The notes under the pieces: model-generated
What the model was told of the DNA's origin: nothing
The model's database searches: none
The model's input: the letters and a program-made list of their open reading frames with translations, nothing else
Shown: positions 26,197-61,100 of the stretch, piece by piece
Position numbering within the stretch: position 1 is the stretch's first letter
How the letters are laid out: the number at the start of each line of letters is the position of its first letter
Source of the DNA: a virus
IMG/VR virus record: IMGVR_UViG_3300009506_000011
Coordinates: 20,187 to 84,186 of that record
Length of the DNA stretch: 64,000 nt
Direction: 5' to 3' (one strand)
Translations under genes and position numbers: made by a program

Positions 26197-26225
26197 TGCC
26201 TACCACGGTCGGCTCTGCTAGTCAA
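26197..26225 (-). promoter_or_regulatory. CTAG-type leaderless promoter (TTGACT-N17-TAGGCA)
   Basis: Reverse strand: TTGACT 26225-26220 in the perfect palindrome GCTAGTTGACTAGC core, 17-bp spacer, TAGGCA 26202-26197, 6 bases, ATG 26190. The same palindrome abuts the start of the divergent gene at 26231. Confidence 0.7.
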
Positions 26226-26230
26226 CTAGC

Positions 26231-26725: not shown

Positions 26726-26728
26726 GCC

Positions 26729-27804: not shown

Positions 27805-28562
27805 GTCGTTCCGTCTATGACTTCGCGATCTCCGCAGATTTCACGTAGCAGGTCTGGGTAATAAGCCAGCTCCCACTCAACACGCCCGAAGCCGGCACCT
27901 CGCTTGCCGCCTAGGCTCGCAACCCTGATCTTGCGGCGGTCAAAGAGTCCGCCTCGGGTCATAGCATAGGCAGGGTGGACAGGAAGCTTGTGCTTGTAGA
28001 GGTACGCGAAGACGTCTTCTGGCTGCCACCATCCAATCGGAGCGCAAGTGTGGGCCGTGGCGATGCCGTAGAACTTCATCCGCATGTTCCGGCCGCTGCT
28101 CTCCTCCCCTCGAATGCCGGATACGTGGCGCTCGCCGTAGCGTTCGCGAGCCAGCGCGAAGCCGCGTTCAAGCGTCCCCTTTGCATGCCAGCCGTCGGAA
28201 TCGCGTAAGCAATGCACGACGATCTCATCATACGGTAGCGGATACTTGCGCAGGAATCGGTCTCGGACCTCGCCACACTCCGGCGAGCATATGGGCTCAA
28301 CGCGCACCCAAACAAGGGGCAGCCGCACCGTCTCACGATAGAACAGGCGCCACGCCAGGTGCGCCGCTACCGTTGAGTCCTTGCCCCAGCTCACACCGAC
28401 GTAGCAGGGGCCTGACTGTGCGAACTTGTGCAGCTCCCGGATGGCCTTCTGCTCCTTGCGCTCCAGTGCCCTGAGCCGAGCGCGCAGGTGGTCCTCACGC
28501 TCGCACGTCTTCCAATGCGCGATGTCGTCTGAGCGATGTCGTGGCGAGGGAACAAGGGTCAT
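27801..28562 (-). CDS. cysH: CysH-like PP-loop protein of a type IV-B-like locus
   Basis: 253 residues. PP-loop YVGVSWGKDSTVAAHLAW, then VWVRVEPICSPECG, DEIVVHCLRDSDGWHAKGTL, GIRGEESSGRNMRM and CAPIGWWQPEDVFAYLYKHK. A CysH-like ATP-pyrophosphatase is the standard accessory of type IV-B CRISPR-like loci; its reaction there is unknown. Coupled (ATGA at 28559-28562) to the RAMP gene upstream and to the phosphatase-SpoU gene downstream. Confidence 0.8.
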   Translation of the reverse strand: MTLVPSPRHRSDDIAHWKTCEREDHLRARLRALERKEQKAIRELHKFAQSGPCYVGVSWGKDSTVAAHLAWRLFYRETVRLPLVWVRVEPICSPECGEVRDRFLRKYPLPYDEIVVHCLRDSDGWHAKGTLERGFALARERYGERHVSGIRGEESSGRNMRMKFYGIATAHTCAPIGWWQPEDVFAYLYKHKLPVHPAYAMTRGGLFDRRKIRVASLGGKRGAGFGRVEWELAYYPDLLREICGDREVIDGTT

Positions 28563-28975
28563 GCCGCGCTAACCACAATCCGACCAAAGCCGAAGGCCGT
28601 GCGTCCACCGAGCCCCGGCCCATTGGCAGCGCACCTCAGCAGAAACTCGCCCACGGCGTTTGTGTCCACCACCACGTGCCCAACCCAACCGGAGATCAGG
28701 CCATACTTACCGCCCATGTCGACGACCTCCTTGCGGCTGTCGTGTGAGATCACTTTGAGCATGAGGCTGTCCCGGTCGAAGCTGTCCACGCCGACGCGCT
28801 CGGGCAGCTCGGTGGCTAGGGCCGCGGTCAGGGACGTCTGCGTCGGCTGGATTCTCAGTGTGGCCCTGCCGGTGGACTGGATGACGACAGGCGTCAGGGC
28901 GTCGATCCGCAGCTTGCGATGACCTCGTTTGGAGACGCGCGGGTACCGCGGTCGCCAGCAGGCGCCGAACCCCAC
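28559..28975 (-). CDS. Cas6-like RAMP, C-terminal part (split gene)
   Basis: 139 codons from GTG 28975; the same frame reads APVEVGFGACWRPRYPRVSK before and after it. KLRIDALTPVVIQSTGRATL and the final NGPGLGGRTAFGFGRIVV, a glycine-rich loop, are the C-terminal half of Cas6/RAMP endonucleases. The N-terminal half is in the other frame (28894-29517); a -1 shift near 28985 joins them into one ~310-residue protein. Confidence 0.6.
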   Translation of the reverse strand: MGFGACWRPRYPRVSKRGHRKLRIDALTPVVIQSTGRATLRIQPTQTSLTAALATELPERVGVDSFDRDSLMLKVISHDSRKEVVDMGGKYGLISGWVGHVVVDTNAVGEFLLRCAANGPGLGGRTAFGFGRIVVSAA

Positions 28976-29517
28976 CTCGACGGGCGCCTGAACAGCTCCG
29001 CTCCGACGCGCCGCTGCTCGTACAGGGCCCGTGCGGCCTCGGCATCACGAACGTAGATTGCCCAGCCGATGCCGCGCCTGTGGGGCAGCAACGCCCATTC
29101 TGGCCAGCGCTGGTGCTGCAATCCGAGCAGCGTGGTCATGAGCCCATGAAGGGCGCGTGTGTTGCGGTGGTCAACCGGCCAGCGCGGCTCTGGCTCGATG
29201 AACAGCTCGAAGCCCAGGCCCGGCATGTAACCGGCATACGGCGGAGCTCCGAGCAGCCAAGGCTGACGCTTGCTGCAGCCTCGCTTCGCTGCGCACCATC
29301 TGGCATTGCGCGCCCGAGCACTTGCCACAGACCGCGGCGTCGCCAGCTTGGAACGCTGCCGGCGCTTCCCTTGGCAAACCGGGGCGCCGCAGGTCTTCTG
29401 GTGCTTGCCCCTGGGCACGAATGGGGCCTCGCAGACTGCGCATCGGTACGTTGTGGAGATGCCGTCGGCGGTAGTGTAAACCTCAGCTTGGGACTGCACA
29501 GAGCTGCTCCTTGGCAT
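28894..29517 (-). CDS. Cas6-like RAMP, N-terminal part with zinc finger (split gene)
   Basis: Useful coding spans 29517 to about 28985. Residues ~22-50 are a zinc finger (CAVCEAPFVPRGKHQKTCGA, then VCQGKRRQRSK); residues ~85-170 (GLGFELFIEPEPRWPVDHRN, RALHGLMTTLLGLQHQ, IGWAIYVRDAEAARALYEQ) look like the first ferredoxin fold of Cas6. The last ~30 codons are out of frame with the C-terminal part. Overlaps csf3 by 35 bp. Confidence 0.55.
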   Translation of the reverse strand: MPRSSSVQSQAEVYTTADGISTTYRCAVCEAPFVPRGKHQKTCGAPVCQGKRRQRSKLATPRSVASARARNARWCAAKRGCSKRQPWLLGAPPYAGYMPGLGFELFIEPEPRWPVDHRNTRALHGLMTTLLGLQHQRWPEWALLPHRRGIGWAIYVRDAEAARALYEQRRVGAELFRRPSRWGSAPAGDRGTRASPNEVIASCGSTP

Positions 29518-30133
29518 GTGCCCAGTAGGGGTACGTCAACGTGCGGTAGGCCATCTGCGGGTCAGCTAGGCCCGGCCAGTCGGGTGGCAGTGAGCGAAGC
29601 GGGCGCCCGTCGCGCACCACCGGGAAGCCGTCCCACGGCTCGCATGGCTCGACCGACCAGCGGCGGACCTTGCCCAGTCCAACGCCGCGCTTCTTGCCGA
29701 GATAGCTGATGATGGCGAGCAGCTGCGCAATCTCGACGCGCTCGCCGATACACCACCAGCACATGGCGTCGTTCACCATGTGCTGCCCCTCGAGCGGCAA
29801 ACGATAGCTCTTGCAGGGGCCAGCGCTGATGAGGACCCGCCGAAGCTTCGCGTCGCCCATGGCCTGCGCCTCGGCGAGTGGAAAACGGCGGTTGACCCAC
29901 CGGCGCTCCACGCACTCGACCTCGGAGACGCTGAACGACGCGAGGTGAAAGCGGCCGTCTGGCTCGCGCTCAATCGGGATCTCGATAGGCTGCACATCGG
30001 CAGCGCTGAGCGGCGGCGGCATCCCGTCCCGACGCGCCACCGCAGCGGCAAGCAAGGCGTCGATGGCCAGCGGTCCGCCGGGGAGCGCGATGGGGCCCAG
30101 CAGCTCGGCGGTGATGATGAGCGGCTCAGGCAT
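29483..30133 (-). CDS. csf3: Csf3 (Cas5-like) type IV effector subunit
   Basis: 216 residues. Opening IDALLAAAVARRDGMPPPLS then PIEIPIE, the middle CKSYRLPLEGQHMVNDAMCW, and especially LLAIISYLGKKRGVGLGKVR followed by VEPCEPWDGFPVVRDGRPLR match type IV Csf3. The G-rich loop is the RAMP hallmark. In type IV complexes it caps the 5' end of the guide RNA. Overlaps csf2 by 8 bp. Confidence 0.75.
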   Translation of the reverse strand: MPEPLIITAELLGPIALPGGPLAIDALLAAAVARRDGMPPPLSAADVQPIEIPIEREPDGRFHLASFSVSEVECVERRWVNRRFPLAEAQAMGDAKLRRVLISAGPCKSYRLPLEGQHMVNDAMCWWCIGERVEIAQLLAIISYLGKKRGVGLGKVRRWSVEPCEPWDGFPVVRDGRPLRSLPPDWPGLADPQMAYRTLTYPYWAHAKEQLCAVPS

Positions 30134-31112
30134 TGACCGACCGGAGGAACTCGGCGATGCGGTCCTTCCGCTTCGCCACGTGGCTCCTGAACAGCGAGCC
30201 TACCTGCTCAGCGAGCGCGGTTACGTCTACCGGGGTCAGCTCGGCGGTCGTCACGAAACGGACGTCCTGCCCGGCTACGACGCGGAGCAAGCCGTGTCCG
30301 GTGCCGCGTTTGCCGCCCACCCGAGCGTTGGTCAAAAAGGCCGCCATGGCCACCTGAAACGTATCGAACTGCAGGTCGTCGTAAACGGTTGCCTCGCATG
30401 CCCAGGAAAAGCAGCTCCCTTGTGCGACACGCTCAAAGCGGCGCGGCATCATGCTGGACTTCTCGCGCTCCCTCCCGACTGCGTCGCCCTCGGCGCTGGC
30501 TTGCTCTGAGGCGGTGAGCCGGCGGTTGATCTCGACCTGATCTCCGACCGGAAGCAGCCGACGCTTTTGCGGGCTGAGGGTCGGATCCATGCGGGTGCGC
30601 TGGACCTCCTCGACGTGGGCCCGGCAGGTGTCCAGCTCACCGAAGTGCTCGGCCGCGAATGCCAGGGCCCAGCTTGGGACGTAGCGAACCGACTCCTCGC
30701 AGATGAGCGTCGCGTCCTCGACGACGAGCTGGCCGGGAATGACGCGGTTGTCTGAGCAGCCACCGAACAGCGTCATGCTGGGCACGAGCTCGCACAGCTC
30801 CCGGTAGCGGTCCAGGTTGATGGTGCCAGCGGAGCCGCGGCCTGTGACCATGCCGCCGGCGAAAAGCAGGCGCAGCGCCGCCTCTGAGAGCTTCTCTTCG
30901 CCCAGCAGCTCAGCGGCCTCGAGAAGGGCATAGGCCGCTGCCTCGCGCATCCCGTGGCGCATCGTGTCGCCGGTGATGATCGGCACGTGGGCCCAGCCGC
31001 CGTTGTGCCGGAGCTTCCGGCGCATGATGACCGCCTCGTTGCCGATTGTTTCCTCGTGATGAGCAATCGGCAGCGCCGCCTCAAGCACGCACTCATATCG
31101 CTTCAGTCGCAT
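30126..31112 (-). CDS. csf2: Csf2 (Cas7-like) type IV backbone subunit
   Basis: 328 residues from MRLKRYECVLEAALPIAHHE with AGAGG ahead of the ATG. VPIITGDTMRHGMREAAAYA is the Cas7 'thumb/pocket' entry, MTLFGGCSDNRVIPGQLVVE the next conserved block, and FLTNARVGGKRGTGHGLLRV the Cas7 G-rich loop. Expected to polymerise along RNA as the filament backbone. The ~60-residue charged stretch (residues 210-250) may be an insertion. Confidence 0.78.
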   Translation of the reverse strand: MRLKRYECVLEAALPIAHHEETIGNEAVIMRRKLRHNGGWAHVPIITGDTMRHGMREAAAYALLEAAELLGEEKLSEAALRLLFAGGMVTGRGSAGTINLDRYRELCELVPSMTLFGGCSDNRVIPGQLVVEDATLICEESVRYVPSWALAFAAEHFGELDTCRAHVEEVQRTRMDPTLSPQKRRLLPVGDQVEINRRLTASEQASAEGDAVGREREKSSMMPRRFERVAQGSCFSWACEATVYDDLQFDTFQVAMAAFLTNARVGGKRGTGHGLLRVVAGQDVRFVTTAELTPVDVTALAEQVGSLFRSHVAKRKDRIAEFLRSVNA

Positions 31113-31554
31113 CTCTACCTCTCTTATCCCAGCACTGCAGACATTGTCCCATCGGCGGAAGATCATAGGACATGACCAATCCGCACGTTTTGCATGTACG
31201 TTTCCTGCTTTCGGCAGCAAGCCGAGCCATGGCCATCAGCAGGCCGTACTCCCGCTCAACTAGGTCGAGCCATTCACCGGCAGCTCCCAGCTCCCCGACA
31301 GCGGCGCCGAGGTCAACCAAAGCCCGGCAGCCATCCTTGCCGAGCGTCGGAAGCTGCAGCCCCCGCTGCATCGCCGTCGCCCACTCGTCCGGGCTGGCCG
31401 TCCGTCTGGCGGCGCTCAGCATCCTGTTCTGGATTTGCTCCCAGTGCTTCAGCGGGCTGCCGCCGGCGGCAAGGTAGGCCCTTCGCAGCTCGAGCAGCAG
31501 CTCCACGGTCTTGGTTCGCAGGCTTTCGCGCTGCTTTTCGTCCAGCCTTGGCAC
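31093..31554 (-). CDS. Cas11-like small helical subunit, nested start
   Basis: 153 residues from GTG 31554, with AAGGAGG six bases upstream. Mostly alpha-helical (LDEKQRESLRTKTVELLLEL, ALVDLGAAVGELGAAGEWLD), as Cas11 small subunits are, with a C-terminal CKTCG...CLQC zinc pair. It starts inside the csf1 frame, in a different phase, and overlaps it by 242 bp. Type IV-B operons carry a cas11 at this place; the zinc tail is unusual. Confidence 0.55.
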   Translation of the reverse strand: MPRLDEKQRESLRTKTVELLLELRRAYLAAGGSPLKHWEQIQNRMLSAARRTASPDEWATAMQRGLQLPTLGKDGCRALVDLGAAVGELGAAGEWLDLVEREYGLLMAMARLAAESRKRTCKTCGLVMSYDLPPMGQCLQCWDKRGRDATEAI

Positions 31555-32299
31555 GCTTCGCCTCCTTTTCTGCGGCCATGCGCCGCTTGACTTGGTCCTC
31601 GTCGCGCTGCGCCAGCCACAGCGCCAGCGCGAACCATCCGCCGCCGCGCAGCTGTCCGCCTTTGGCCTCGAAGCGCTGCAACGTCTCGCTGCACAGCTGC
31701 CAGGCGCGCGCCTCGTAGCGCCCCGTTTCAAGCTCGGCTTTGGTGGCGCCAGCAGTCAGCAAAGACGCCAGCTCGTCAACAAGCGCCCATCCAGCCTCGT
31801 CGCCGGGAAGCCGGATCCTGGTCTCGTCGAACAGCACCCAGCCGCCGGGACCAGGAGGGTTCACCGGGGTCCACGGCAACACGTGTTTCTGGCCGCTGTC
31901 GGCGATGGCCGCAAACCAAACGCCACGGTGTGGCCGCCGGAGAAACTCAAGCACGACGGGCTTCTCGCCCTTGCTCGCGTTCAGGTACCGCGGCTCAGCC
32001 GCCGCGTCGTACAGGTGGGAGTAGTTGCGGTAGTTGCCGCCGAGCTTCTTACCGGGGGCTGGGGGGCGCCCGGGGACCGGGGAAAGCCTGGCACAGAAGT
32101 AGACGCACGGCTCGCAGACCCATTTGCTCTCTGGACAGCGAACGCGGTTTTGGCCTGTGAAGGTTGAGCCGTTCCACAAGCTGACTGGCTGGCCCCGTGT
32201 CAGCGAGGCGGCGCAAAGCCAGCAGCGACCATCGGCCGGCGCGCAATCGGTGTGCATCGGAGCGCCGAGGTGGTGGTGCAGCAGGCGCGTGGCGCTCAT
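31313..32299 (-). CDS. csf1: Csf1 (large-subunit) type IV protein
   Basis: 328 residues. Zinc module CWLCAASLTRGQPVSLWNGS with FTGQNRVRCPES and VCEPCVYFCA, then a central beta region (KGEKPVVLEFLRRPHRGVWF) and a helical end. This Cys4-headed layout is typical of Csf1. Past ~residue 245 the sequence becomes Ala/Arg/Lys-rich because it overlaps the cas11-like frame, so Csf1 may really end earlier or be affected by an indel. Start set by the leaderless promoter. Confidence 0.7.
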   Translation of the reverse strand: MSATRLLHHHLGAPMHTDCAPADGRCWLCAASLTRGQPVSLWNGSTFTGQNRVRCPESKWVCEPCVYFCARLSPVPGRPPAPGKKLGGNYRNYSHLYDAAAEPRYLNASKGEKPVVLEFLRRPHRGVWFAAIADSGQKHVLPWTPVNPPGPGGWVLFDETRIRLPGDEAGWALVDELASLLTAGATKAELETGRYEARAWQLCSETLQRFEAKGGQLRGGGWFALALWLAQRDEDQVKRRMAAEKEAKRAKAGRKAARKPANQDRGAAARAAKGLPCRRRQPAEALGANPEQDAERRQTDGQPGRVGDGDAAGAAASDARQGWLPGFG

Positions 32300-32306
32300 G
32301 ACGGGC

Positions 32307-32335
32307 ATCCTGCCAGCCGCTAGCGTGCTAGTCAA
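32307..32335 (-). promoter_or_regulatory. csf operon promoter (TTGACT-N17-CAGGAT)
   Basis: Reverse strand: TTGACT 32335-32330, spacer AGCACGCTAGCGGCTGG, CAGGAT 32312-32307, 7 bases, ATG 32299. Carries the CTAG operator like the phage's other promoters, so the csf locus is wired to phage regulation. Confidence 0.65.
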
Positions 32336-32745: not shown

Positions 32746-34516
32746 GTTCAGCATCGAAGGCAGCGTCTCGGGCTTTTCACCGTACAGCGACGTCGGCAAG
32801 GACATCGAGCCGGGCGAAACCGTCACGCTCAAGCTCGAGAACCCCGGGACCGTATCGCAGGTCCGCTTCGATATCGAGTTCAAGTCGACGAGCTACGTCC
32901 CGAGCATCACGCTCTCCCCGCCGAGCGGCATGCCCGCCAAGCCGAGCGACGACGTCACCTTCGTGGCGCCGGTGGACGTCGTGGCCAGCTACAAGATCCG
33001 GTGCATCACCGGCGACGGGACGGCTGACGGCGCGGTCAAGAGCCGCATCGTGGCCATCCGGAGCGCCATCGGGCTGCGGCACGTCATCGTCACGGAAAGG
33101 GACGAGTACCAGCGGCCTTACGGATGGGCGGAAGCCATCAACGAAACGGTCGACCAGACGGTGGCAGCGGTCGGTGGCGACATCACAGGCCCCGGCGCGT
33201 CGACGGATGGCGCTATCGCCACCTGGAACGGCGCCAGCGGCAACCAGCTGCGCAACAACTCGCTGGCGATCATCCCGCCCGGCACCGGCCGGCTGCAGCT
33301 CACCGAGCGGATCGAGCTAGGTGACAGCCCCACGGACAATGGTCTCAACTTGGAGCAGCTGTACGGCGTGAGCTGGAACACCGAGCTTGGAGCGGCTCGC
33401 GCCATCGGGATCGAGAACGGCACCGATCTGACCATCGGCGACGTGACCAACATCGACTACGTTCTGCTGCAGGCGAAAGCCTCGAAGGCGGTGAACGTGG
33501 ACATCGGCGGCACCACCGAGCTGGCGGTGGAGACGGGCCGCGCTCGAGTGTCGAACGAGCTGAAGCTGACGGGCAAGCTCAAGATGGGGCCGACGCCCCC
33601 GGACGGCACCGGGATCAACCTCTCGACCACGCAGCCGATCACCGGGGAAACGGTGGCGCCGGATGCTGGCCAGGCGCACATGATGAGCGTCGATGCGAGC
33701 AACCGGCTGCTGCTCGGCGAAAATGGCAACCTCGGCGATGTGTACATCCGGACAAGGACCGGCAACAACGTTTATGTCGAGATCGGCGGCGCCAACAAGC
33801 TCACCGTCGGAAGCTCGCTTGTCAGCGTGTCGTCAAGCCTGAGCATCGGCGCTGTTCCGGCTCCGAGTGGCACCCTTGCTCTGCCCAAGACCGCTTCGGT
33901 GCGCGCGTCGAATCAGGGTGAGGATGACTACGTGCCGATGATTGCCACAGACGCGGGAGATCAGCTGCTCCTTGGTGGCAACTACGTCGGCAACAAGGGC
34001 ATGCGGCTCGACGTCCAAACCGGCTACATCATCGCTGCAGCTATCGCCGGGACAACAGAGCTGTCTGTTGAAGCTGGCAAGGTGGTCGTGGTCCACAATC
34101 TGGAGGTGCAGGGGGGCGAGGCGTGGGTGCCGCTTGAGCCTATCTACTACGAGATGCTCACGACGCGGATCACGACAAACGATGTCGACTTGGAAGATAT
34201 CACCGGCGCATCCGTGGCCGTTACGTTGCCAGCGGAATGCCGCCTCATCTGCGAGATGCACTGCCAGACCTCGGCGGGCACCACCTCGTGCACCGGTCTC
34301 TGGGCAATCAACATCAATGGCGTGGACAAGACGACGATGGGGCGCACCATGTCCGGCGTCAGCGACATCGGCTCTGTGAGCGTGATGGCATCGGCTGATC
34401 TGGCCGCTGGCGGACCGTATACGGTCAAGGGTCGCCACCGACGCGCCGGTGGAGCTGGCACTGTGCAAACCGAGAAGGTCCAGCTCATCGTCCGAGTTTA
34501 CGTCAAGCCAGTCTGA
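32735..34516 (+). CDS. tail fibre-like protein
   Basis: 593 residues. N-terminal Ig-like beta domain (ETVTLKLENPGTVSQVRFDI, YKIRCITGDGTADGAV), an AIATWNGASGNQLRNNSLAI linker, then repeated beta-helix-type strands: VNVDIGGTTELAVETGRARV, VYVEIGGANKLTVGSSLV, ITAAAIAGTTELSVE-like repeats, and a C-terminal jelly-roll-like domain (VTLPAECRLICEMHCQTSAG). Fits a trimeric fibre. Confidence 0.7.
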   Translation: MGAEFSIEGSVSGFSPYSDVGKDIEPGETVTLKLENPGTVSQVRFDIEFKSTSYVPSITLSPPSGMPAKPSDDVTFVAPVDVVASYKIRCITGDGTADGAVKSRIVAIRSAIGLRHVIVTERDEYQRPYGWAEAINETVDQTVAAVGGDITGPGASTDGAIATWNGASGNQLRNNSLAIIPPGTGRLQLTERIELGDSPTDNGLNLEQLYGVSWNTELGAARAIGIENGTDLTIGDVTNIDYVLLQAKASKAVNVDIGGTTELAVETGRARVSNELKLTGKLKMGPTPPDGTGINLSTTQPITGETVAPDAGQAHMMSVDASNRLLLGENGNLGDVYIRTRTGNNVYVEIGGANKLTVGSSLVSVSSSLSIGAVPAPSGTLALPKTASVRASNQGEDDYVPMIATDAGDQLLLGGNYVGNKGMRLDVQTGYIIAAAIAGTTELSVEAGKVVVVHNLEVQGGEAWVPLEPIYYEMLTTRITTNDVDLEDITGASVAVTLPAECRLICEMHCQTSAGTTSCTGLWAININGVDKTTMGRTMSGVSDIGSVSVMASADLAAGGPYTVKGRHRRAGGAGTVQTEKVQLIVRVYVKPV

Positions 34517-35781
34517 GCGCCGCTCGCGCGCTCCAGGTCCCTCTTGACGGCCTGCAGAAGGTTGTGTAGCGCGCGCTTCGTCCACCGCCTCGGGGGCGTG
34601 CTGATAACACCATCGAGGTTGGCTATGATGCGCTCAATCTGCTCGATGAGCTGGCTCATTCTCAGGGGCTGGAAGCCGTGCAGCGCTTGCTTTGCGCGCC
34701 GATAGGCGCGGGTGAGGGCGGGGTCAATGCCTTGGGTGGTGATCGGCCACTGCGCGACAGCTCCGACGAGCGGCGAGAGCGCGGCGAAGCGGTCGGAAAT
34801 GCTCTCAGCTTGCGCTTTGAGGCTTGCGCTGCCGAGGCCAGGCGCAAGCCCGGCCAGGACGACGGACGCCTCCTCAATGGCCTTGTGCTCAGCGCTGCGG
34901 ATGTGCTCCCAGGCCGGTTGGCGCTTGTCGAAGACGGCCGCCTCGAGCGCGACGAGGCGGCCCACTACCTGCGCGATGTCCGTGCGAGCAAAGAGCTGCT
35001 CGGGCTCGGCGTGCTCACGGATCTGGCGGATGACGGTCGCGAGATCCATCGTCATCCGTTTCTCAAGGCCGCCGTCGCGAGGGTGAGCCGGGCGGGCCAG
35101 CGCTTTCTCCCAGGCGTCGCAGGCGCGCCAGAGCTGCTCAGCAAGCGTGCCTCTTGCCGCGGCCCGGATCTCGGCGCCTTGCATGCCGGGGCCGCCTGGC
35201 AGTCGCTCGTCCGCGCAGCCGTCGCAATCGCCGCCACCGGCAGCGCATTCCGCCAGCGGTTGGTTCCTGTAGCAAAGCTCCGGCCTTTTCGGAGCGACCT
35301 TCGCGGCAGGCATGACGTCCCGGCGAGTCACCTCGATCAGGTCGATGCCTTCTGTCTTTCCGGTCAGCTCTCGCAAGCGTCGACCAGCGGTCAGCAGCTC
35401 CCCACGTTCACGCTCGCGTGCGGTTATGTGCCTGGTGATGGCTGCAATGGCGCCGATGGCGTCCAGCGGGATTTCGGACAAGCCAACGGCCTCCTCCAGC
35501 TGGCGGATCCACCATGCGTCGCCGTGCATCCCGGTCATTCGCACCGTGAGGCGGCCGAGCACGTCCTCGATTGGGCTGGTTGCTGAGACGTCCTTGAAAT
35601 CACAGGCGCCGACAATCTGGCTGCACCACCAGGCATCGCGGTCGTGCAGCTCGCCAGCTGGTGGCTGCAGGCTCTGATATAGCGCCTGCACCACCGAAAG
35701 AGGCAGCGTCACCAGGAGGTCATGCGTGCCTGCCGCTTTGATTGCTTGGTGGAGTCGCTCGGAGAGATCCAGAAAATTCAC
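34498..35781 (-). CDS. hypothetical protein of the early operon
   Basis: 427 residues starting GTG that overlaps the previous TGA. Contains a Cys group (ELCYRNQPLAECAAGGGDCD, then GCADERLPGG) and long helices. Last gene of the recombination operon; no family recognised. Converges with the fibre gene (19-bp overlap). Confidence 0.55.
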   Translation of the reverse strand: MNFLDLSERLHQAIKAAGTHDLLVTLPLSVVQALYQSLQPPAGELHDRDAWWCSQIVGACDFKDVSATSPIEDVLGRLTVRMTGMHGDAWWIRQLEEAVGLSEIPLDAIGAIAAITRHITARERERGELLTAGRRLRELTGKTEGIDLIEVTRRDVMPAAKVAPKRPELCYRNQPLAECAAGGGDCDGCADERLPGGPGMQGAEIRAAARGTLAEQLWRACDAWEKALARPAHPRDGGLEKRMTMDLATVIRQIREHAEPEQLFARTDIAQVVGRLVALEAAVFDKRQPAWEHIRSAEHKAIEEASVVLAGLAPGLGSASLKAQAESISDRFAALSPLVGAVAQWPITTQGIDPALTRAYRRAKQALHGFQPLRMSQLIEQIERIIANLDGVISTPPRRWTKRALHNLLQAVKRDLERASGAQTGLT

Positions 35782-37307
35782 GACACCACCTCCGCGGTCC
35801 CGTCGTCCACGTAAATGGTGCACGTCTCCTCGGGGGTCCGAGCGACGCGCTCGATGATCACGACAACGCCGCGATCTTCTGCACGCTGTCGCAGTGCGGC
35901 GAGCGCCTCGGCGTCGAAGCGGTCGTCGCGCATGATGACGAGCCCGATGTGCGTCGCCTGCTTGAAGGCCACAGTGAGAGCCGCCTCCCATTGCTCACGG
36001 TGGCTGGCCACCTCGATCGGTCGGCCGTGGATGGTGATGCCGTTCTCGTCGAAGCCGAGGCCGTCGGGCAGGTCCGCCTCGGCAAGCTGCTCGTCCTTCT
36101 CGGCCTGGATCTCTTTGAGGCGTTGTTTCAGCCGGGCCACCTCCTGGCGTCGAGCCTCGAGCTTCTTCTTGGTGGCGAGATAGCTCGCGCGCCCGTCCAC
36201 CTTGCAATTGATTGCCTCGGCGCCGCTGATGTCTGCGAGCGTGGCGGTATCGTCCTCCCGCACGAAGGCGGCGATGGCGTCTCGCGTTGCAGCGAGCTGC
36301 TGCGCAGCAGCCTCGGAGGCGGGTGCCAGGGCCGCCTTCAGCTGCTTCTCGTGCCAGGCCAGCTGCTGGTTTAAGCCAGCCTCGCCGACGCACCGAAGCA
36401 GCACCCGGTGGGCGTCATTGGCAGCCGCAACGGCCTGCTGCGCTACGTGTTTGGCGTCGGACAGCTGCTGCTTCGCCTCGGCCAGCTGCTGCTCCAGCTC
36501 CGCCACGCGCTGCTCCAGCGGCGCAACCGGCGCTCGCGCGTCTGTGAGGGTCACGCGAGCCTCGGCCAGCACGCCGAGCTGAGCCTCGCAGGCATCGAGC
36601 GCAGTTTTCCGCTGCTCGGCCGCCTTGAGGGCAGCGGACAGATCGGTCTCCTTTCGGTTGTGCGCCAGCTGCCGCTGAAGCTTCTCGGTGAGCGCCTTGA
36701 CGTCACGGCGATCCGCCGGCGCGTCCTCGAGCGGCGGCAGCGCTCGGAGCTGGCCCTCGAGGTCCGATACGACCTTGTTGACCTCGGCGCGGTGGGCATA
36801 GACCTCGTCCCTCTCCCGGTCCAGCTTGTCCCAGTCGAGCTTCGCGACCTTGCGCAGAATAGCGCCTTGCTCGCGCCGGCCGGCGGGCGTCTTGCCGAGG
36901 TCCAAGAAGGCGGCGGGATCCACGGCGCCACACTTCGCCCAAAGGCTCTGCAGGAGCGTCTCGGCCGACTTCGTGACGCGCTCGCCGGGGGAATGACCTG
37001 GCGCACCGATGACCTTGAGGGTGCGCTTCAGGGTACCATTGCGCTCCAGCTTCCAGGTCCGCTCTACGACCATGTCTTGGTCGGTGTAGATGGTGACGCT
37101 GGCGAAGCTCGCGTCGCCGTGTAGCAGGTCTGGCGGCTCGGCAGCCTTGCCCGCGAGGCAGGTCTCGATCGCTCGGGTAAGCGAGGTCTTGCCTTGCTTG
37201 TTGCGACCCGCGACGATCTCGAGCGCGCCGCCCTTGAAGGTCAGGTCGCAGCCCCTAAGCCGCATGAAGTTTTCGATCTGGACGCCGGTGATGAGCATGG
37301 GCTTCAT
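35778..37307 (-). CDS. SbcC/RecF-like coiled-coil ATPase
   Basis: 509 residues. N-terminal LITGVQIENFMRLRGCDLTF and Walker A EIVAGRNKQGKTSLTRAIET are the RecF/SbcC/RecN head; residues ~165-410 are coiled coil; the C-terminal head has GLGFDENGITIHGRPIEVAS, QWEAALTVAFKQA (signature-like), and a degenerate Walker B IGLVIMRDDRFDAEAL. Likely works with RecT and the exonuclease in phage recombination. Confidence 0.75.
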   Translation of the reverse strand: MKPMLITGVQIENFMRLRGCDLTFKGGALEIVAGRNKQGKTSLTRAIETCLAGKAAEPPDLLHGDASFASVTIYTDQDMVVERTWKLERNGTLKRTLKVIGAPGHSPGERVTKSAETLLQSLWAKCGAVDPAAFLDLGKTPAGRREQGAILRKVAKLDWDKLDRERDEVYAHRAEVNKVVSDLEGQLRALPPLEDAPADRRDVKALTEKLQRQLAHNRKETDLSAALKAAEQRKTALDACEAQLGVLAEARVTLTDARAPVAPLEQRVAELEQQLAEAKQQLSDAKHVAQQAVAAANDAHRVLLRCVGEAGLNQQLAWHEKQLKAALAPASEAAAQQLAATRDAIAAFVREDDTATLADISGAEAINCKVDGRASYLATKKKLEARRQEVARLKQRLKEIQAEKDEQLAEADLPDGLGFDENGITIHGRPIEVASHREQWEAALTVAFKQATHIGLVIMRDDRFDAEALAALRQRAEDRGVVVIIERVARTPEETCTIYVDDGTAEVVS

Positions 37308-38233
37308 GCTGCACCGCCTTCCTTGGCCGGCGGCGGAATCATCTCACCGTCCGGGCTCAGCTCCCAGCCGGCGGCGATCTCCTCCGGCGTCAGGCCGCTC
37401 GTAGGAGTGGACGGCTCCGCCGGAGTGTCTGGCTCGCTCACCTCGATGCCGTGCCGCTGGATAGCATCGGCGATTTGCGCGTCGATCAGCTCGACGGGCC
37501 GGCGCGCGTCCTCGACAGCCATGGCGCGGGTCAGCAGCTGGTCTTCGGTGTCTGCCGGCGCCAGCTTGAGCACCTGCCGAACGGCCGTCTTTTTGAACAT
37601 TTCCTCTTCCCAGTTCTTCCACGGGGAAAAGTCGCTGTCGCTGCCGCGGTTTACGTCGCGGCGCTTAATGACCTCGGCCCGGGACAGGACCCTGAACATC
37701 GGCGTCGTATCGCCCCTTACCTGCGCCGTGCCATAAGCCCACGATATGGGCCGGGTGTGACGCTCGGGGTTAGTCAGGTCGGGAATGTGCCGTATGTGCC
37801 GGTTGGTGCCTAGCTCGTAGTAAAAGTCGTCGCCAGCGTACACCACCTCGCCGGCGATGTCGGTGACCAGGCCGGAGCGACGCGCCAGCACGCACAGGCC
37901 CCGATAGTCGATGATGGCAGTGCATTCCAGCACGCGGCCCTTCTTGAAAGGCACGAGCCAGACTCCGCCAGCCATGCTCGGCATCAGGCCAAGCTGTGCC
38001 GTGGTGAGCAAGCAGATGAAGAAGCTGCCGGGAGTGCATAGTGCCAGCTTTGGCTCCTTGGTCACTGCCGTCATGGTGGCGCGGAGAAACCGCTCTACGC
38101 CCATCTGCCGCGGGACGGCGTTTTTGATCTGCGGCTCCATCCGCTTGATGAGGCCCCGTAGCTCGGTCGCGGGGTCCTTATCTCGCTTTTGAATCTGTCC
38201 GTTTGGGGCCGTTTGGGGCGTTCTGCTAGCCAT
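37304..38233 (-). CDS. recT: RecT-family single-strand annealing protein
   Basis: 309 residues. VERFLRATMTAVTKEPKLAL, SFFICLLTTAQLGLMPSMAG and VWLVPFKKGRVLECTAIIDY with RGLCVLARRSG are the RecT core in order; SPWKNWEEEMFKKTAVRQVL is the conserved later helix. Anneals single strands made by the exonuclease next door. C-terminal tail acidic and proline-rich. Confidence 0.92.
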   Translation of the reverse strand: MASRTPQTAPNGQIQKRDKDPATELRGLIKRMEPQIKNAVPRQMGVERFLRATMTAVTKEPKLALCTPGSFFICLLTTAQLGLMPSMAGGVWLVPFKKGRVLECTAIIDYRGLCVLARRSGLVTDIAGEVVYAGDDFYYELGTNRHIRHIPDLTNPERHTRPISWAYGTAQVRGDTTPMFRVLSRAEVIKRRDVNRGSDSDFSPWKNWEEEMFKKTAVRQVLKLAPADTEDQLLTRAMAVEDARRPVELIDAQIADAIQRHGIEVSEPDTPAEPSTPTSGLTPEEIAAGWELSPDGEMIPPPAKEGGAA

Positions 38234-39233
38234 GCTTCTTTATCCTCAATGGTCTACTGGTTGACGGCTTCACCACCTGGGCGACAATGTGCTGCCGGCC
38301 AAGCTCTTTGGCGAAGTCGTGATGGTTCCCCGGCGGCGTCACCTTGACGTAACCGGAGCGCTCCTGCGTTCGCAGGGTGATCTGAAAGTCGGCGACGAAG
38401 CCGCGTTCAGCGGCGCCCATCGCAAGCCGAATGCGCGCCTCGCTTGCTCGGAGTGCTGCCTCGGTGGTCCGCGCCTCGGCGCGGAGCCGCACAATCTCGT
38501 CGGCGTAGCAGGCGAGGTCCTCGGACAAGACGACCTCGCTGCCATCGTCCTCGGGGTAGTGGCGCGCGATGGCACGGGCGGCCGACTCGCTGCCGTCTGG
38601 CTCCGGCGGGTCCCGGTCGATGACGCGCTGCCAGAAACGCTCACCGTGCCAGATGATGCGGCGGATCATCCGCTCGTCCCGTGGGATGTCCTGCCAGACG
38701 AAGCGCGCGCCGCCGATGAGGCAGGCGATGGCGCCGCGGCTGGCCCCCGTAACGAGCAGCTGGTGCTGGACCTGGATGAAGTACGGCTCCGGCGCACCAT
38801 CCGCCCAGTCGGCAATCTGGTAGGCGGAGTGCGTCTTGGCTTCGAGGGGTTGCCATCTGGCCTTGTTCGCTGCTACTTCCTCGATGCTCAAAAGCTCGAC
38901 TTCGCTCGGCTCCAGCGTCCAAGCATCCAGCGTGCATTGCGCCCAGGGATGCTCACGGCTCCGCAGCAGCTGGCCGCTCGGCCGCACGAGCCGCCCGGTG
39001 CGCTCGCCGAAGGTTTGGATGATGATGGGCTCAAGCTTGTGGCCCCACTCGATCGCCTCGACGTCCGACGGGTCGACCGGCGGGATCTCGCCCATCTTTT
39101 CGAGCGCGAGCTCGTAGGCGCTGCGCCACTTGCTCAGGCCCATGACCGCCGCCATCTCGGAGGCGCCAATGCCGGCGGTGCGCTTCTCGAGCCAGTCCTC
39201 GCGGTCGTCGCAGGGGATGACGTCGTAGGTCAT
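38226..39233 (-). CDS. YqaJ-type exonuclease
   Basis: 335 residues. RTAGIGASEMAAVMGLSKWR and SAYELALEKMGEI open the YqaJ/lambda-Exo fold; EWGHKLEPIIIQTFGERTGR, LDAWT, WQPLEAKTHSAY (Asp/Glu-x-Lys) and YFIQVQHQLLVTGA follow. Provides 5'-3' resection for RecT. 8-bp overlap with recT. Confidence 0.9.
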   Translation of the reverse strand: MTYDVIPCDDREDWLEKRTAGIGASEMAAVMGLSKWRSAYELALEKMGEIPPVDPSDVEAIEWGHKLEPIIIQTFGERTGRLVRPSGQLLRSREHPWAQCTLDAWTLEPSEVELLSIEEVAANKARWQPLEAKTHSAYQIADWADGAPEPYFIQVQHQLLVTGASRGAIACLIGGARFVWQDIPRDERMIRRIIWHGERFWQRVIDRDPPEPDGSESAARAIARHYPEDDGSEVVLSEDLACYADEIVRLRAEARTTEAALRASEARIRLAMGAAERGFVADFQITLRTQERSGYVKVTPPGNHHDFAKELGRQHIVAQVVKPSTSRPLRIKKHG

Positions 39234-42593: not shown

Positions 42594-42803
42594 GTGAAAA
42601 CTACGAGCAACGCGCGTCACGTTGACGTCCCGATGACGGGCACTTTTTGGCGGTACCTGAAGGAGCTACGTCAGCGGCTCGGTACATCGAGCTGGGCGGA
42701 GACATTTCGAGCCGCTGTCCGTGAAGCGGTTGATCGGCGGCGAAGAGAGGACGCTGAGGCAGGTCGTCACCTATCCTTGGTAGGGGAGCCAGAGCAAGAC
42801 TGA
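42594..42803 (+). CDS. ribbon-helix-helix-like small protein
   Basis: 69 residues, GTG start. KTTSNARHVDVPMTGTFWRY then LKELRQRLGTSSWAETFRAA and VREAVDRRRR have the strand-helix-helix plan of an RHH repressor. Located just before the replication initiator. Confidence 0.5.
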   Translation: MKTTSNARHVDVPMTGTFWRYLKELRQRLGTSSWAETFRAAVREAVDRRRREDAEAGRHLSLVGEPEQD

Positions 42804-43999
42804 TGGCCCGCGGCCGCATGCTTCTCAAGTCGCTGAGCCTTTGTGGCCAGCTTGCCGATCTGTCAGACGACACGGCACGACTGCTCTTCTGCATGTGCGT
42901 CCCACACCTTGATCGGGAGGGACGTTTGCAGGGCGATCCCCGGCGTCTCGCGGCGACCGTGTGGCCGCTGCTGCACGGTCCGCAGCCGACCGCACGAGCG
43001 CTGGCGGAGCTCGTTGAGCAGCGACTCGTCGCCGTCTACGACGATGAGCGCGGTCAGACTGTCGTTTGGTTCCCGGCCTTCGAGCGCTCACAGCCTGGGC
43101 TCCGACGGGACAGAGAGGCGGAGAGCAGCTACGGTCCGCCGCCTTCGTGCGAGCCCTCTGGTTTGGTGCCTGCGTGGCTGCGGGAGTACTCCGGACCTAC
43201 TCCGGAGCAATCCCGCGGTGGTCCGGAGTACTCCGGAGTTTTCCCGGAGTACTCCGGACCTACTCCGGAGCAACCCGAGCTAAGTGTTCGAAAGGTGGAA
43301 ACTCCGGAGTTTTCCCGGAGTACTCCGGGAGTGCTCCCGCCTAAATCAAAGGAAAGTAAAGGAAGGGAGGTTGCCGCGCGTGCGCGCGTAGCAACCGCCG
43401 CGCCACCACCACAACAGGAGCAGGCGGTCTGCGAAGGGTGCGACGATATCGCCGAGTGCGGTGCCGATGGTGTGCCAGTGGGATGGGCGGATGGGCTCTG
43501 CCCCGAGTGCCAGCGCCACGACGTGAGCCAAACCGCCGGCTACCTCCAAAGCATCAAGAACCAAGGAGCCAAGCCAGCGCCACCGTCCAAGCTCGGAACG
43601 GCACCCATGAACCCGGTGGCGCGCCAGCTGGCGGAGCATATTAGGACTCACCGGCGCTTCGATGGCATCGACGCTGGCGAGATCGGCAACAGCAACGCTC
43701 ACCTCGTCGAGACGGGTGGCAAGTCGCTAACCTGGCTGAAGGAGGCGATCGACGAGTGCAACCGGGACGCCGGCTCAGCCGCCGCCGCCAGGCGGCCCTG
43801 GTCCGACGATGTCCTCGCGCAGAAGCTTGGTCGCTACCTCTGGAAGGCAAGGCGCCCGGAGCCGAGCGATGCGGGAGAGGAGATCCACCATCACCCCCCG
43901 CTCTTCGTGGACAACGGACCGCGCCCGACCCCGGAGCAAACGCGGCAGTTTGCGGCCGAGGCGCTGGCGAAGTTCCGCGCCGGCAGGAAGGTGCCATGA
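42803..43999 (+). CDS. replication initiator (lambda O-like, ori inside gene)
   Basis: 398 residues. N-terminal LLKSLSLCGQLADLSDDTAR, LLFCMCVPHLDREGRLQGDP and RRLAATVWPLL form the winged-helix 'replisome organiser' head. The middle (residues ~127-180) is low complexity because the DNA is an iteron array (EYSGPTPEQ repeats). Then a Cys cluster (CEGCDDIAECGADG, LCPECQ) and a helical C-terminal domain for helicase loading. Upstream of dnaB-like gene. Confidence 0.75.
   Translation: MARGRMLLKSLSLCGQLADLSDDTARLLFCMCVPHLDREGRLQGDPRRLAATVWPLLHGPQPTARALAELVEQRLVAVYDDERGQTVVWFPAFERSQPGLRRDREAESSYGPPPSCEPSGLVPAWLREYSGPTPEQSRGGPEYSGVFPEYSGPTPEQPELSVRKVETPEFSRSTPGVLPPKSKESKGREVAARARVATAAPPPQQEQAVCEGCDDIAECGADGVPVGWADGLCPECQRHDVSQTAGYLQSIKNQGAKPAPPSKLGTAPMNPVARQLAEHIRTHRRFDGIDAGEIGNSNAHLVETGGKSLTWLKEAIDECNRDAGSAAAARRPWSDDVLAQKLGRYLWKARRPEPSDAGEEIHHHPPLFVDNGPRPTPEQTRQFAAEALAKFRAGRKVP
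43181..43370 (+). other. probable replication origin: iterons plus A-rich unwinding stretch
   Basis: Four GGAGTACTCC-centred palindromes (43183, 43225, 43246 and 43317 regions), CCTACTCCGGAGCAA twice, and a 28-bp perfect repeat (43230-43257 and 43301-43328). Directly downstream (43341-43370) comes an A-rich, one-strand-purine stretch, rare in this GC-rich DNA. Iterons inside the initiator gene followed by an AT-rich element is the lambda ori plan. Confidence 0.75.
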
Positions 44000-56170: not shown

Positions 56171-57834
56171 TGGCTCCTCTGTCCTGGGCCGAGCTGCAGA
56201 AGATCATCGTGCCGCGGGAGGTCCCGACCTCCGAGGAGTACCGCTGGTATGCCGGCGCGAATGTCACGCCGCAGCGCATCCAGGAGGTGCTTCGGCAGGC
56301 CGAGTGCGGCTACATGGCGCCCCTCACCGACCTCGAAGACGAGATGCTCATGCTCGACGCGCATGGTGCAGCCGTCGCGCAGAAGCGCATGGCGGCGCTG
56401 CAGTCCCTGCCGTGGTCGGTAACCGCGGCCAAGGGCGAGGGCATCGACGACGGCCTGGCTGAGGAGATCGCCGACGCTACCCGGCGCATGTACGAAGGCA
56501 TCCCGGCTTTTGACGATGCCATCTACAACCAGGCATGGGGCACTTTCCACGCCCGCGCCTGCCACGAAATCCACTGGGACACCTATCCGCGCCGGCCGCA
56601 CTTCCGGCCGCGTGAGCTGCAATGGATCAAGGCGCGCCGTCTGAGCTTCGGCCCCGCGCGGCAGCTGCTCATCGTCGAGCCGTGGTTGGCCCCGAGCGGC
56701 TTCCAGAGCCGAGGCATAGACACTACCGCCTGGCCCTGCCACTTCTGGACCTTCACGCCGAAGCTCTTTGGTGAGTACCCCGAGAAGGAGGGGATCGGCC
56801 CGCGGATGCTCTACTGGATGCTTTTCAAGCGGCTCAGCTGGCGCTGGCGCTTGCTGCTGCTTGAGATCTTCGCGTTGCCGTGGCGAATCGTCAAAGCGCG
56901 ATACGACGCCAATGGCAACCCGATGGCGAGCGCCGACCAGATCAAGGCAGCCGCCGAGATAGTGCAGCGGCTCGGTCTCGACTCGACCGCGTGGCTCGGA
57001 CCCGGCATCGACATCGAAGTGGTCACGGTGGACGCCGCCTCTTCGGACCTCTTCCAGACGACGGGCGCGGACGCCGACCTCCAGCTGAGCAAGATCGCCC
57101 TCGGCAACACCGCCACCACCGAGGGGAACGAGAGCAACCGCTCAAACAGCATCATTCAGCTCGGCTCTGAGGAGCTGCTTAACGCCAAGGACGCGAGCGG
57201 CATGTCGGGGTCAATCAACCGCGACATCGGCATCCCGTTCACCGGCCTCAACTACGGTTGGGACAAGCTCGACCATGCCGCCGTCTTCAAGATCAAGGCC
57301 GAGCCGGCGCGCGATACGACGAAAGAGCTAGAGCATGCAGACAAGCTGCTCAGCATGGGCGCACCCATAGCGCTTAACCAGCTCTACGAGGTTTCCGGTT
57401 GGCGCGCGCCGAACGAGGAACCTTACGTCGTTCGCGGCGGCGATGGCATCGCTCGCGTCGTCGATCCGAGCGCGCCTGCAGCGCCAGAGCCAGAGCGTAA
57501 CCCGGACGATGCCGTGGCCGTCGCCGGTGACCTCGAAGACAGCGGCACCGGTCAAGCCGCGGAGAACGCCGAGGCCGACCTCGAAGCGCTGGAGCGAGCG
57601 AAGGCTCACCCGCAATGCAACGTAGCTCGGGACTGGCTTCGCGAAGAGGGTCTCGATGGGCAGGATATCGAGCGCGCCATTGAGCTGTGCTTGACGGGAC
57701 AAATCCGGCGGCTCGATACCGTACCGATGCTCACGGACGCGGCGGCGAGGCGGCTGAGCATGACGATCATCCCGCCTTTCCGCATCGTGCCGGCGCCAGG
57801 AGAGCCGGCTCGCCCCTTTCTCGGCTGGACATGA
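56170..57834 (+). CDS. portal protein, DUF935/Mu gp29-like
   Basis: 554 residues. QRIQEVLRQAECGYMAPLTD, EDEMLMLDAHGAAVAQKRMA, LQSLPWSVTA and later WPCHFWTFTPKLFGEYPEKE, EIFALPWRIVKARYDANGNP, FTGLNYGWDKLDHAAVFKIK are the DUF935 blocks. Forms the vertex ring through which DNA passes. Confidence 0.88.
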   Translation: MAPLSWAELQKIIVPREVPTSEEYRWYAGANVTPQRIQEVLRQAECGYMAPLTDLEDEMLMLDAHGAAVAQKRMAALQSLPWSVTAAKGEGIDDGLAEEIADATRRMYEGIPAFDDAIYNQAWGTFHARACHEIHWDTYPRRPHFRPRELQWIKARRLSFGPARQLLIVEPWLAPSGFQSRGIDTTAWPCHFWTFTPKLFGEYPEKEGIGPRMLYWMLFKRLSWRWRLLLLEIFALPWRIVKARYDANGNPMASADQIKAAAEIVQRLGLDSTAWLGPGIDIEVVTVDAASSDLFQTTGADADLQLSKIALGNTATTEGNESNRSNSIIQLGSEELLNAKDASGMSGSINRDIGIPFTGLNYGWDKLDHAAVFKIKAEPARDTTKELEHADKLLSMGAPIALNQLYEVSGWRAPNEEPYVVRGGDGIARVVDPSAPAAPEPERNPDDAVAVAGDLEDSGTGQAAENAEADLEALERAKAHPQCNVARDWLREEGLDGQDIERAIELCLTGQIRRLDTVPMLTDAAARRLSMTIIPPFRIVPAPGEPARPFLGWT

Positions 57835-58073
57835 CCTACGAGCGCCGGCCAGATCGCCGCTGGCGGAAGGCGGCGCGCAACGCGGTTCGATCGGCGCTTC
57901 GCAGCGGGACGATGAAGCCGGAGCCGTGCAAGCACGCGAGCAGTCTGTGCAGCGGGCGAGTGACGGCGCACCATCACAGCGGCTACAGCCGGCCCCATTG
58001 GCTGGACGTGGTCTGGCTCTGCCGCTACCACCACGCGCTGCAGCACCGACTGGAGCGAGCCACCGGCAGATAG
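57831..58073 (+). CDS. HNH-like zinc-binding protein
   Basis: 80 residues. CKHASSLCSGRVTAHHHSGY and SRPHWLDVVWLCRYHHALQH keep the 'aHH.sGY.kPldVvWLC..HH' pattern of small phage HNH-type domains, but lack an obvious full CxxC at the N-side. Possibly inserted between portal and head genes as a homing-type element. Confidence 0.6.
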   Translation: MTYERRPDRRWRKAARNAVRSALRSGTMKPEPCKHASSLCSGRVTAHHHSGYSRPHWLDVVWLCRYHHALQHRLERATGR

Positions 58074-58192: not shown

Positions 58193-61100
58193 GTGGTGGA
58201 CGAGCAGCTTGTCGCCGGTGAGCTGGCCGCGCTGCGCATGACGAACCAGCTCCTGATCGCCGTCGGCCGCGCCGGGATCCTCGGCGACGTGGCAGACATC
58301 GTGAACCAGGCCGCCGGTTTGGTGGACGAGGCGCCGCTCGTTGATGCCATCTACCTCGCCACCGCGAAGGCCGCGATGCTCGGCGCCGACGACTCGGACG
58401 TTGAAGCAGAGGACGAGACGGTCATCGCGCCGGATCGCTTCGCACGGTGGGGCGGCGGCGCCGGTTGCGGCTGCGGCTGTGCCACCACGGCGGCCGCCCG
58501 TGCACCATCGTGTACCGGATCCAGAACCGCAGCACCGCCTGCTCAGCCGCGCTCAGCCCAGCCTCCCGAGCCCACTTCCTCGCTAGCTCACTTGCCGTCA
58601 TACTCCCTTGATCGCCAGAACGACGCCAACCCGGAAAGCCATCTTGACAGCGCCGGCGTTTTGGCGGATGCTCCCGCTGAAGGGGCGCAAGCCTCTGTCG
58701 TGAACTGCGTAGAAGGAACGGCTCCCCTTGCCAGCGAGCCACCGAACCCGGCAACCGCGCCGGGTTTGGCATTTGTGCTTGACGCGGCGCCGGAGCCGTG
58801 CTCAGCTGACGCTCGCAGCTCGGGGGCCTCTCGCGCTGCGGCCACCGAGCCCAGCCAAAAGCTCGTTGGCGCTGACTCAGAGCTTGAACCCGTAACCGGG
58901 AGCAAACGGGACCCGGCGGCAGGCGCCCCTGCTGAGGTTGCAGCCCCGTCGGGCGTAGACGGAGGCTGCGTCAATTTGGCCCTTGACAGCGCGGAGCCGT
59001 TGTGCTCTTCTACAAGCACGCCTCATGGAGCCATAGCTCGGGGCCGAGAAGCCGGCTTTGCCGGCTTTGCCATTATGGGGGCCTCACCGCCGGTGAGGGT
59101 TGACAGCGCGGCCGAGCCGTGCTGTAATGAGTCGAGCCTTGCCTGTTCGTTGAGCGCCGTTAGCCGTGAGTCTAGCGGCGTTTTTTTTGCTGGCCCCGCC
59201 GGCCGCCCCGGCTCCAAGTCGTTCACCGACGCCGTCCGGGAGTTCCGCAGCCGCGGCGCGGTGACGAGAGACGTCTTCGATGCGATGACCGCGGAGGAGC
59301 GCGCGCGGAGCTTCACGGTCGCTCGCCTCCTCACGAAGGAGAGCGTCGCCGTCGTCCAGGACGAGCTGGCGCGCGCCATCGAAGCCGGGGAGTCACTCCG
59401 CAAATTCCGCGTGAACCTCCGTCAGCGGATGCAGTCGAGCGGGATCGCCATCGCGCCGAAGTGGCGGTCAAAAGGCGACGCCGCGAGCCTCGACGCGCTG
59501 GACGCCAGCCACGTCGAGACGGTCTACCGCAACAGCGTGATGAGCGCCTACAGCGCCGGCCGGGCGAAGCACATGACGCAGCCGCACATCGTGGCGGCGC
59601 GGCCGTACTGGCAGAACATGACGGTGAACGACGGCCCGCCCCGGCAGCGGCCGACTCACCGCGCGGTGCACGGCTGGGTGATGCGCGCAGACGATCCTGG
59701 GTGGCAAGTCACATATGCCCCGCATGGCCACAATTGCCGCTGTAGAACTATCGTTAGATCGGCCGCCTGGGTCGAGCGCAACGGCCCCCGAATGCACTCC
59801 GGTCCGCTGCCGGACCTGCCTGATCCCGGCTGGACCTGCCGTCCACCGCCGGCGGTGGTGATCCCGCCCGAGCCGGTGCCGAAGCCAGACACCAAGGCGG
59901 AGCCGCCGCTGGCGCCACGTCCCTCCCGGGGTTCGAGCCTGCTGCGCGAAGGCGACGAGCAGCTCGACAACGAGACGCGCGCCGCACTCGAGCGGCTCGA
60001 CAGCTACGACAAGGACGAGCAGGGCCAGATCAGCATGCGAGCGCTCGGCTTCATCGAGCCGAAACCGACGGAGCTGGAGCGCATCAAGGAGCTGCTCGGC
60101 GCCCGAGGCGCCGCGCTCGAGCAGCGCTTCGGCCGCGCCATCGCCGAGCCGATGGCCGGCTACGAGATCGCCGCCGGCGCGAAGGTGGACGGCGCTGCCG
60201 CCGCCGAGGCGGCCAGGGCCTGGGATACCGTGCCGTTGCCCCGAGTGCTGCGCATCGGCAACAGCTACCACCTCCTCGACGGTGACGCAGCCGCCGCTGC
60301 CCAGGTGTCCAGCGAGCGGGGTCTGAGCGGCCTCGGCGCCTTGCGAGCGCGCGTTGTCGAGGCGCCCATCAACCGCCTCCCCAAGGCGCCTGCGAGCCGC
60401 GCTGACGCCGTCCGAGAGCTCGGCGAGGCGGCAACCGGCCTGCGGTCCGACCGCGCCTCACAGGCACGCATGCGGCTAGCTCTGCAGGACATACTCCACG
60501 GGGAGGGGATGGCGAGCCGGGACAACCTCGAGACCCGCGAGATGGCTGAACGGATCAGCGTGCTTCGCTCCAACGTCGTCCGCGCTGGCCACGCCTGGAA
60601 CGGCCAGGTGGAGATCGCCGCCTCGGTCCTGGACGAGGCGCAAGCCGGTCTCACCGCCGCGCGCGCCGGCCGGGAGCTGTCGGCGGGTCAGCAGCGCGCC
60701 ATCTCGACCCTTTTCCACGAGGAGATCCACGGCACCTCGCCCATCGCCAGGTCCGCTTACGAGGCGCATGGCGCGGCGCTTGAGGAGGCCGGCGCCGAGA
60801 TCCTCGCCCGACGGCAAGCGCGCAAGCTGCTCGGCTTGCGGAGCGCCGCCGCTGATGAGGCGCTCGGCCTGCCGACGAAGCCGATCACAAGCAAGGTCGG
60901 CGGCGGTGAGATGGCGTACGTCCGCGCCTATGAGGGGCCTGTGTCCAGGCTGCTGGTCACCGTCGGCCGCTACGACGTGAGCGCGGCAGACGTCGAGGCG
61001 GCGCTCGTCCGGATGCGCGCCGCGAGCGCTGCTCGGTTCGAGACGGCGGATGCGTACCTCTCGGGCTTCGTGGCCGAGCTGCCGGTGGCTGAAGCGCAGC

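Follow-up and report, generated by a model that had tools for sequence, protein, structure and literature searches.

The question raised by this locus is whether a row of promoter-like boxes inside a phage head gene serves to make small RNAs or is simply part of the protein. The window, which is the whole stretch of DNA analysed here, comprises 64,000 nt (positions 20187 to 84186 in a virus record 84,186 bases long), and the four TTGAC boxes lie within the ORF of the F minor head protein, upstream of its Phage_Mu_F domain (Pfam PF04233, E 2e-18, 67.6 bits against a cut-off of 29.6). The first-pass annotation had taken these boxes for four tiny RNA genes standing in place of protein, and had suggested them as a possible source of guide RNAs for a type IV-B-like operon. 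The F gene belongs to a head module with the order portal (Portal_Mu, Pfam E 3e-47), one small HNH-like gene, F. The HNH-like gene (57831-58073, phrog_2340) has an ATG that overlaps the portal stop codon; in a relative, L090, portal and F are fused in a single 896-aa frame that has no HNH-like gene. The HNH-like gene may be an insertion between portal and F. The parts of the F gene are as follows.

GTG at 58193 or 58196, plus strand: start codon of F.
58193..58462, plus strand: conserved N-terminal helical part of F (GC3 0.88), aligned with L008, L090, L091 and L095; its helices are predicted by a low-confidence structure model.
58463..59197, plus strand: linker expansion of 245 codons, present in the window only (boundaries within about 30 nt either way).
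59216..59860, plus strand: conserved Mu-F domain region of F (PF04233; GC3 0.865), aligned with relatives.

Searches for relatives of F with the single protein or with broad profiles gave none; narrower alignments did, and narrow profile searches yielded five related records (L008/L089, L090, L091/L009/L088, L095 and L097). All keep the N-terminal motif ..GADDS..E....F, altered in L095 and L097, together with the F domain. The linker between these parts measures 9 residues in L095, 26 in L091, 29 in L008 and 56 in L090 (alignment A7), against 260 in the window, and that of L097 is short too. Since both linker flanks are conserved and the linkers of the relatives are short, the claimed array coincides with a linker expansion that is seen only in the window. 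Indeed, the five relatives have neither a TTGAC box in the linker nor the linker sequence of the window, and none of the records found carries an expanded linker. Among 274 genomes from the class of the L088 MAG, the F-domain matches were distant, started at query residue 302 at the earliest (at least 302) and reached at most the end of the segment. Searches of phage and plasmid DNA with the segment returned only chance-level matches of 22-50 nt, the exact repeat and terminator patterns occurred in none of the viral contigs searched, and the 84-kb record held no further copy by blastn or by 12-mer sharing, which was below average. Compared with Mu-type minor head protein F (PF04233, PHROG 220), the window shares the F domain and the adjacency to the portal gene, and differs in that the short, variable pre-domain linker of the relatives is replaced by one of about 260 residues, with a peptide repeat and a different codon usage unseen in the relatives found. 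Judged from these alignments, the minor head protein of this phage thus apparently has, at about 58463 to 59197, a large expansion of its linker that is so far unique to the window.

Codon phase, periodicity and an open frame together give a clear test between a peptide repeat and a promoter array. In keeping with the stop-free forward frame noted at first pass, the F frame runs uninterrupted through 373 codons, against 6-20 stops in the other frames. Within the 245 codons of the segment, the F frame has 0 stops, the other plus-strand frames 8 and 15, and the minus-strand frames 6, 3 and 5; simulation or shuffling yields so open a frame in 0.3-0.5% of sequences. The three-base periodicity of the segment is strong (chi2 45.7 versus 5.9 in shuffles, with 0 of 2000 as high) and stays strong at 35.7 when the repeat cores are taken out. 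Of the five blocks into which the segment was divided, four show an excess of G at the first codon position. Moreover, the boxes are spaced 135, 204 and 117 nt apart, each distance being divisible by three, and the four share one codon phase because each, written as CTT or GTT followed by GAC, spells the start of (L/V)-D-(S/A)-A. Codon phase would be kept by a peptide repeat, whereas nothing would make a promoter array keep it. This analysis suggests that the segment 58463-59197 is translated, and the open frame, the periodicity, the codon phase and the conserved linker ends contradict the proposal of RNA genes instead of protein. An intron was rejected, there being no Rfam intron match and no stop in frame, as was an intein, for which no domain was found in the Pfam search.

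The repeats and their promoter-like boxes, ranked with a simple sigma-70 matrix, are listed below.

58643..58672, plus strand: repeat 1, LDSAGVLADA; TTGACA-17-GATGCT, matrix rank 14.
58778..58807, plus strand: repeat 2, LDAAPEPCSA; TTGACG-17-TCAGCT, matrix rank 252.
58982..59011, plus strand: repeat 3, LDSAEPLCSS; TTGACA-17-TCTTCT, matrix rank 9.
59099..59128, plus strand: repeat 4, VDSAAEPCCN; TTGACA-17-TGTAAT, matrix rank 1 of 127,930.

The boxes are real, with TTGACA at 58644, 58983 and 59100, TTGACG at 58779 and exact 17-nt spacers, as first described; the GAGCCGT reported for three units is likewise present, in the last three. Of just 7 plus-strand copies of TTGACA in the 64 kb, 3 fall in the segment. 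The repeats, 12-24 nt long, are 71-100% alike. At the peptide level the segment would hold four degenerate copies of (L/V)-D-(S/A)-A, three of which continue with E-P and Cys, and the promoter-like boxes would be the peptide codons CTT or GTT, GAC, then AGC or GCG. The boxes share their phase and their neighbouring letters because they are codons of the repeated peptide. The -10-like hexamers of the earlier reading held up in part for the last unit and not for the others: agreement with TATAAT is 3/6 for GATGCT, 2/6 for TCAGCT, 3/6 for TCTTCT and 5/6 for TGTAAT, and only GATGCT combines A at position 2 with T at position 6, the key A being absent from TGTAAT. A rule-based promoter scan called no promoter at any of the four boxes. 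The matrix, with generally known sigma-70 base frequencies, was scored at 127,930 positions and may not suit the sigma factors of the host. The boxes of units 1-3 are largely one internal repeat.

Promoters are found in each repeat of the type II-C CRISPR arrays of Neisseria, and the segment is similar in that a repeated promoter-like motif is followed by differing sequence. It differs in the uneven spacing given above, in its degenerate repeats and codon phase, and in that no targets were found; the near-identical repeats and regular spacing of a CRISPR array were absent from it.

Four hairpins lie among the units.

58742..58769, plus strand: hairpin of 11 pairs with a weak T tail; perfect stem at 58745-58766.
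59049..59067, plus strand: hairpin AAGCCGGC-TTT-GCCGGCTT, perfect stem, no T tract.
59082..59098, plus strand: hairpin CCTCACC-GCC-GGTGAGG, perfect stem, no T tract.
59152..59188, plus strand: terminator-like hairpin followed by T8; 12-pair stem at 59152-59183, dG -18 kcal/mol.

A GC hairpin in each unit had been claimed, and hairpins are indeed present, but units 2-3 lack a T tract after theirs, and only in unit 4 does such a tract reach six or more. The description of the last unit as ending in a textbook terminator with eight Ts was accurate, with its T8 and dG of -18 kcal/mol. No other T8 occurs on either strand of the window, and the hairpin at 59152..59188 scores z -2.9 against shuffles. 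At the other end of the unit, no sigma-70-like match in the window outranks the box at 59100, which has an extended -10 TGC. A promoter scoring at least 15 followed by a terminator was found in 0 of 60 Markov-simulated windows, a figure that is not a clean probability, the pair having been noticed before testing; a looser pair (promoter at least 10, plus terminator) was found in 2 of 60. Among 3000 codon-order shuffles, T8 appeared in 1% and a promoter as good as that at 59100 in none. The promoter and terminator of unit 4, side by side, exceed what chance would usually give, and this last unit, 59100-59188, is what survives of the original model. Unit 4 resembles a minimal sigma-70 small-RNA gene with an intrinsic terminator in its TTGACA, 17-nt spacer, TGTAAT, hairpin and T8, and differs from one in lying within a translated frame and in a -10 whose second position lacks the A. 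A hypothetical RNA from it could start near 59135 and end at T8, a length of about 54 nt.

The strongest alternative to a plain coding function is that the segment is translated while unit 4 also works as a minigene, its RNA of that length acting as a small RNA or as an attenuator of the head operon. The matrix rank and extended -10 of the 59100 box, the unique T8 behind its stable hairpin, the simulated windows and the codon-order shuffles all favour such dual use. Against it, the -10 lacks its A at position 2, the -35 is accounted for by the peptide repeat, the statistics are post hoc and come from a search for oddities, no Rfam family or homologue matches, and the sigma factors of the host may differ from the matrix. 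On balance dual use is rather unlikely, though worth weighing. A more specific version, in which a discrete RNA, about 54 nt long, arises from unit 4 within the F frame, possibly late in infection, for regulation or for use by the type IV-B-like complex, with the same bases encoding linker, is somewhat less likely again.

The codon usage of the segment sets it apart from the remainder of the gene. Its GC3 is 0.637, against 0.864 predicted from the codon preference of the rest of the gene, so that the unusual third-base use pointed out earlier is confirmed (about 0.87 in the remaining gene). Almost all Leu codons are CTT or TTG, and GC is flat by codon position. Compared with synonymous shuffles, the RNA folds more tightly at 58556-58915 (z -1.7 and -2.0), 58916-59155 (z -3.0, an excess that again favours dual use) and 59036-59275 (z -1.7); values elsewhere in the F gene, the N-terminal part included, scatter around zero (z -0.3 to +2.1). 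Some DNA-level features of the segment are unexplained by coding alone. The minus strand at the start of the segment carries a further feature.

58422..58601, minus strand: ORF of 59 aa (MTASELARKWAREAGLSAAEQAVLRFWIRYTMVHGRPPWW...), with gene-like codon use over the first 46 codons.

In that 46-codon block the minus frame has a GC3 of 0.87 and a log-odds of +0.09, versus -0.49 for the plus frame. Such codon use suggests that the first 46 codons of the segment could be an inverted piece of another gene. Searches of phages, plasmids and the relatives gave no homologue for the minus-strand peptide at 58425-58601, and the minus-strand ORFs of the segment gave no significant family match.

These features invite a second alternative, namely that the segment is captured DNA with no function, a composite of foreign pieces, among them part of an inverted gene and a one-time regulatory region with its promoter and terminator, that came to sit in the linker and persists there only for being stop-free by chance. 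The flat GC across codon positions and the gene-like minus strand would fit such an origin, as would hairpins and a terminator, which are typical of intergenic DNA. The G enrichment at codon position 1 and the periodicity in the F frame do not, nor do repeats in codon phase; an open frame of this length is unlikely by chance, and no source was found in phage and plasmid DNA or in the rest of the record. Capture without function is accordingly improbable, more so than either form of RNA production from unit 4. Palindromic elements of the RPE-like and REP-like types insert in frame within protein genes. The segment is likewise hairpin-rich DNA in an open frame, and differs from them in that the 84-kb record holds no other copy of it and its units have no palindrome in common.

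The likely explanation is that the segment is a translated, lineage-specific expansion of a flexible linker with an internal peptide repeat. The expansion would join the N-terminal helical part of the F protein to the Mu-F domain, at a position that should tolerate change in length, as the relatives already show, and the linker may have grown by uptake and duplication of DNA with foreign codon usage. It is probably an evolutionarily young and disordered linker. It is rich in A, S, P and G, has 11 Cys in 245 residues (an example peptide encoded within 58463-59197 is LVGADSELEPVTGSK), and is predicted to have no helix or strand by a structure model (five aligned sequences) whose pLDDT of 39.8 is too poor for use beyond the missing predicted linker helices. 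The promoter and terminator of unit 4 would then be silent, with translating ribosomes normally holding the terminator-like hairpin open. Ribosomes are described as stopping intrinsic terminator hairpins from forming (PMC5021804), and because of this blockage a terminator within a translated frame is no contradiction. Counting against the translated linker are the GC3 and Leu codon use, the gene-like minus strand, the excess folding, the promoter-terminator pair and the lack of a relative with the expansion.

The type IV-B-like operon noted at first pass is well supported by profile matches, and, in line with the lack of an array noted there, repeat searches found no CRISPR-like array. The region, carried by the phage, spans 26222-32335 on the minus strand.

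About 31313-32335, minus strand: csf1 (E 2e-23).
31093-31731, minus strand: cas11, weak match.
30126-31220, minus strand: csf2 (E 8e-40).
29483-30133, minus strand: csf3 (E 2e-34).
28559-28975, minus strand: Cas6-like gene, weak match.
27801-28562, minus strand: PAPS-reductase/CysH-type gene near the operon.

A Cas6-like gene beside no array is odd. In one type IV-B complex that has been studied, the bound RNA is heterogeneous and about 55-60 nt long (PMC7937560), so that no dedicated guide source is required. The only tie of the segment to the type IV-B-like complex is the similar length of the hypothetical RNA, and the guide-RNA proposal is unsupported, the units having no array-like spacing and no significant or protospacer-like match among phages or plasmids. 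The weakest alternative, that of four independent tiny RNA genes replacing protein and possibly serving as guides, draws on the repeated -35-like boxes, the csf1-cas11-csf2-csf3 operon without a visible array and the RNA size bound by the studied complex, and is highly improbable in the face of the coding signals, the failure of three of the four -10 boxes, the differing unit lengths and hairpins, and the heterogeneous RNA of that complex. Two further candidates were rejected: antisense action on the phage's own sequence, as no unit pairs with its own genome over more than 12 nt, and a known RNA family, as the four Rfam matches were all far below the gathering score (best E 0.58).

The locus illustrates how, in a GC-rich gene, the codons of a repeated peptide can mimic a promoter array. 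Transcription of unit 4 would make it a case of a functional RNA gene within a structural gene, in a phage with an array-less type IV-B-like operon.

Elsewhere in the window, a cluster of palindromic ACTCCGG repeats at 43167-43348, which includes a hairpin with a 17-bp stem (43220-43260), lies in or beside the ORF 42803-43999, near a DnaB helicase gene, and resembles iterons or an origin of replication. At 4982-5156 a 76-nt sequence occurs twice, 99 nt apart and with 96% identity. The minus strand at 34498-39233 carries RecT (37304-38233), a YqaJ-type exonuclease (38226-39233) and an SMC/Rad50-like ATPase (35778-37307), which together make a phage recombination module in a genome whose head genes are Mu-type.
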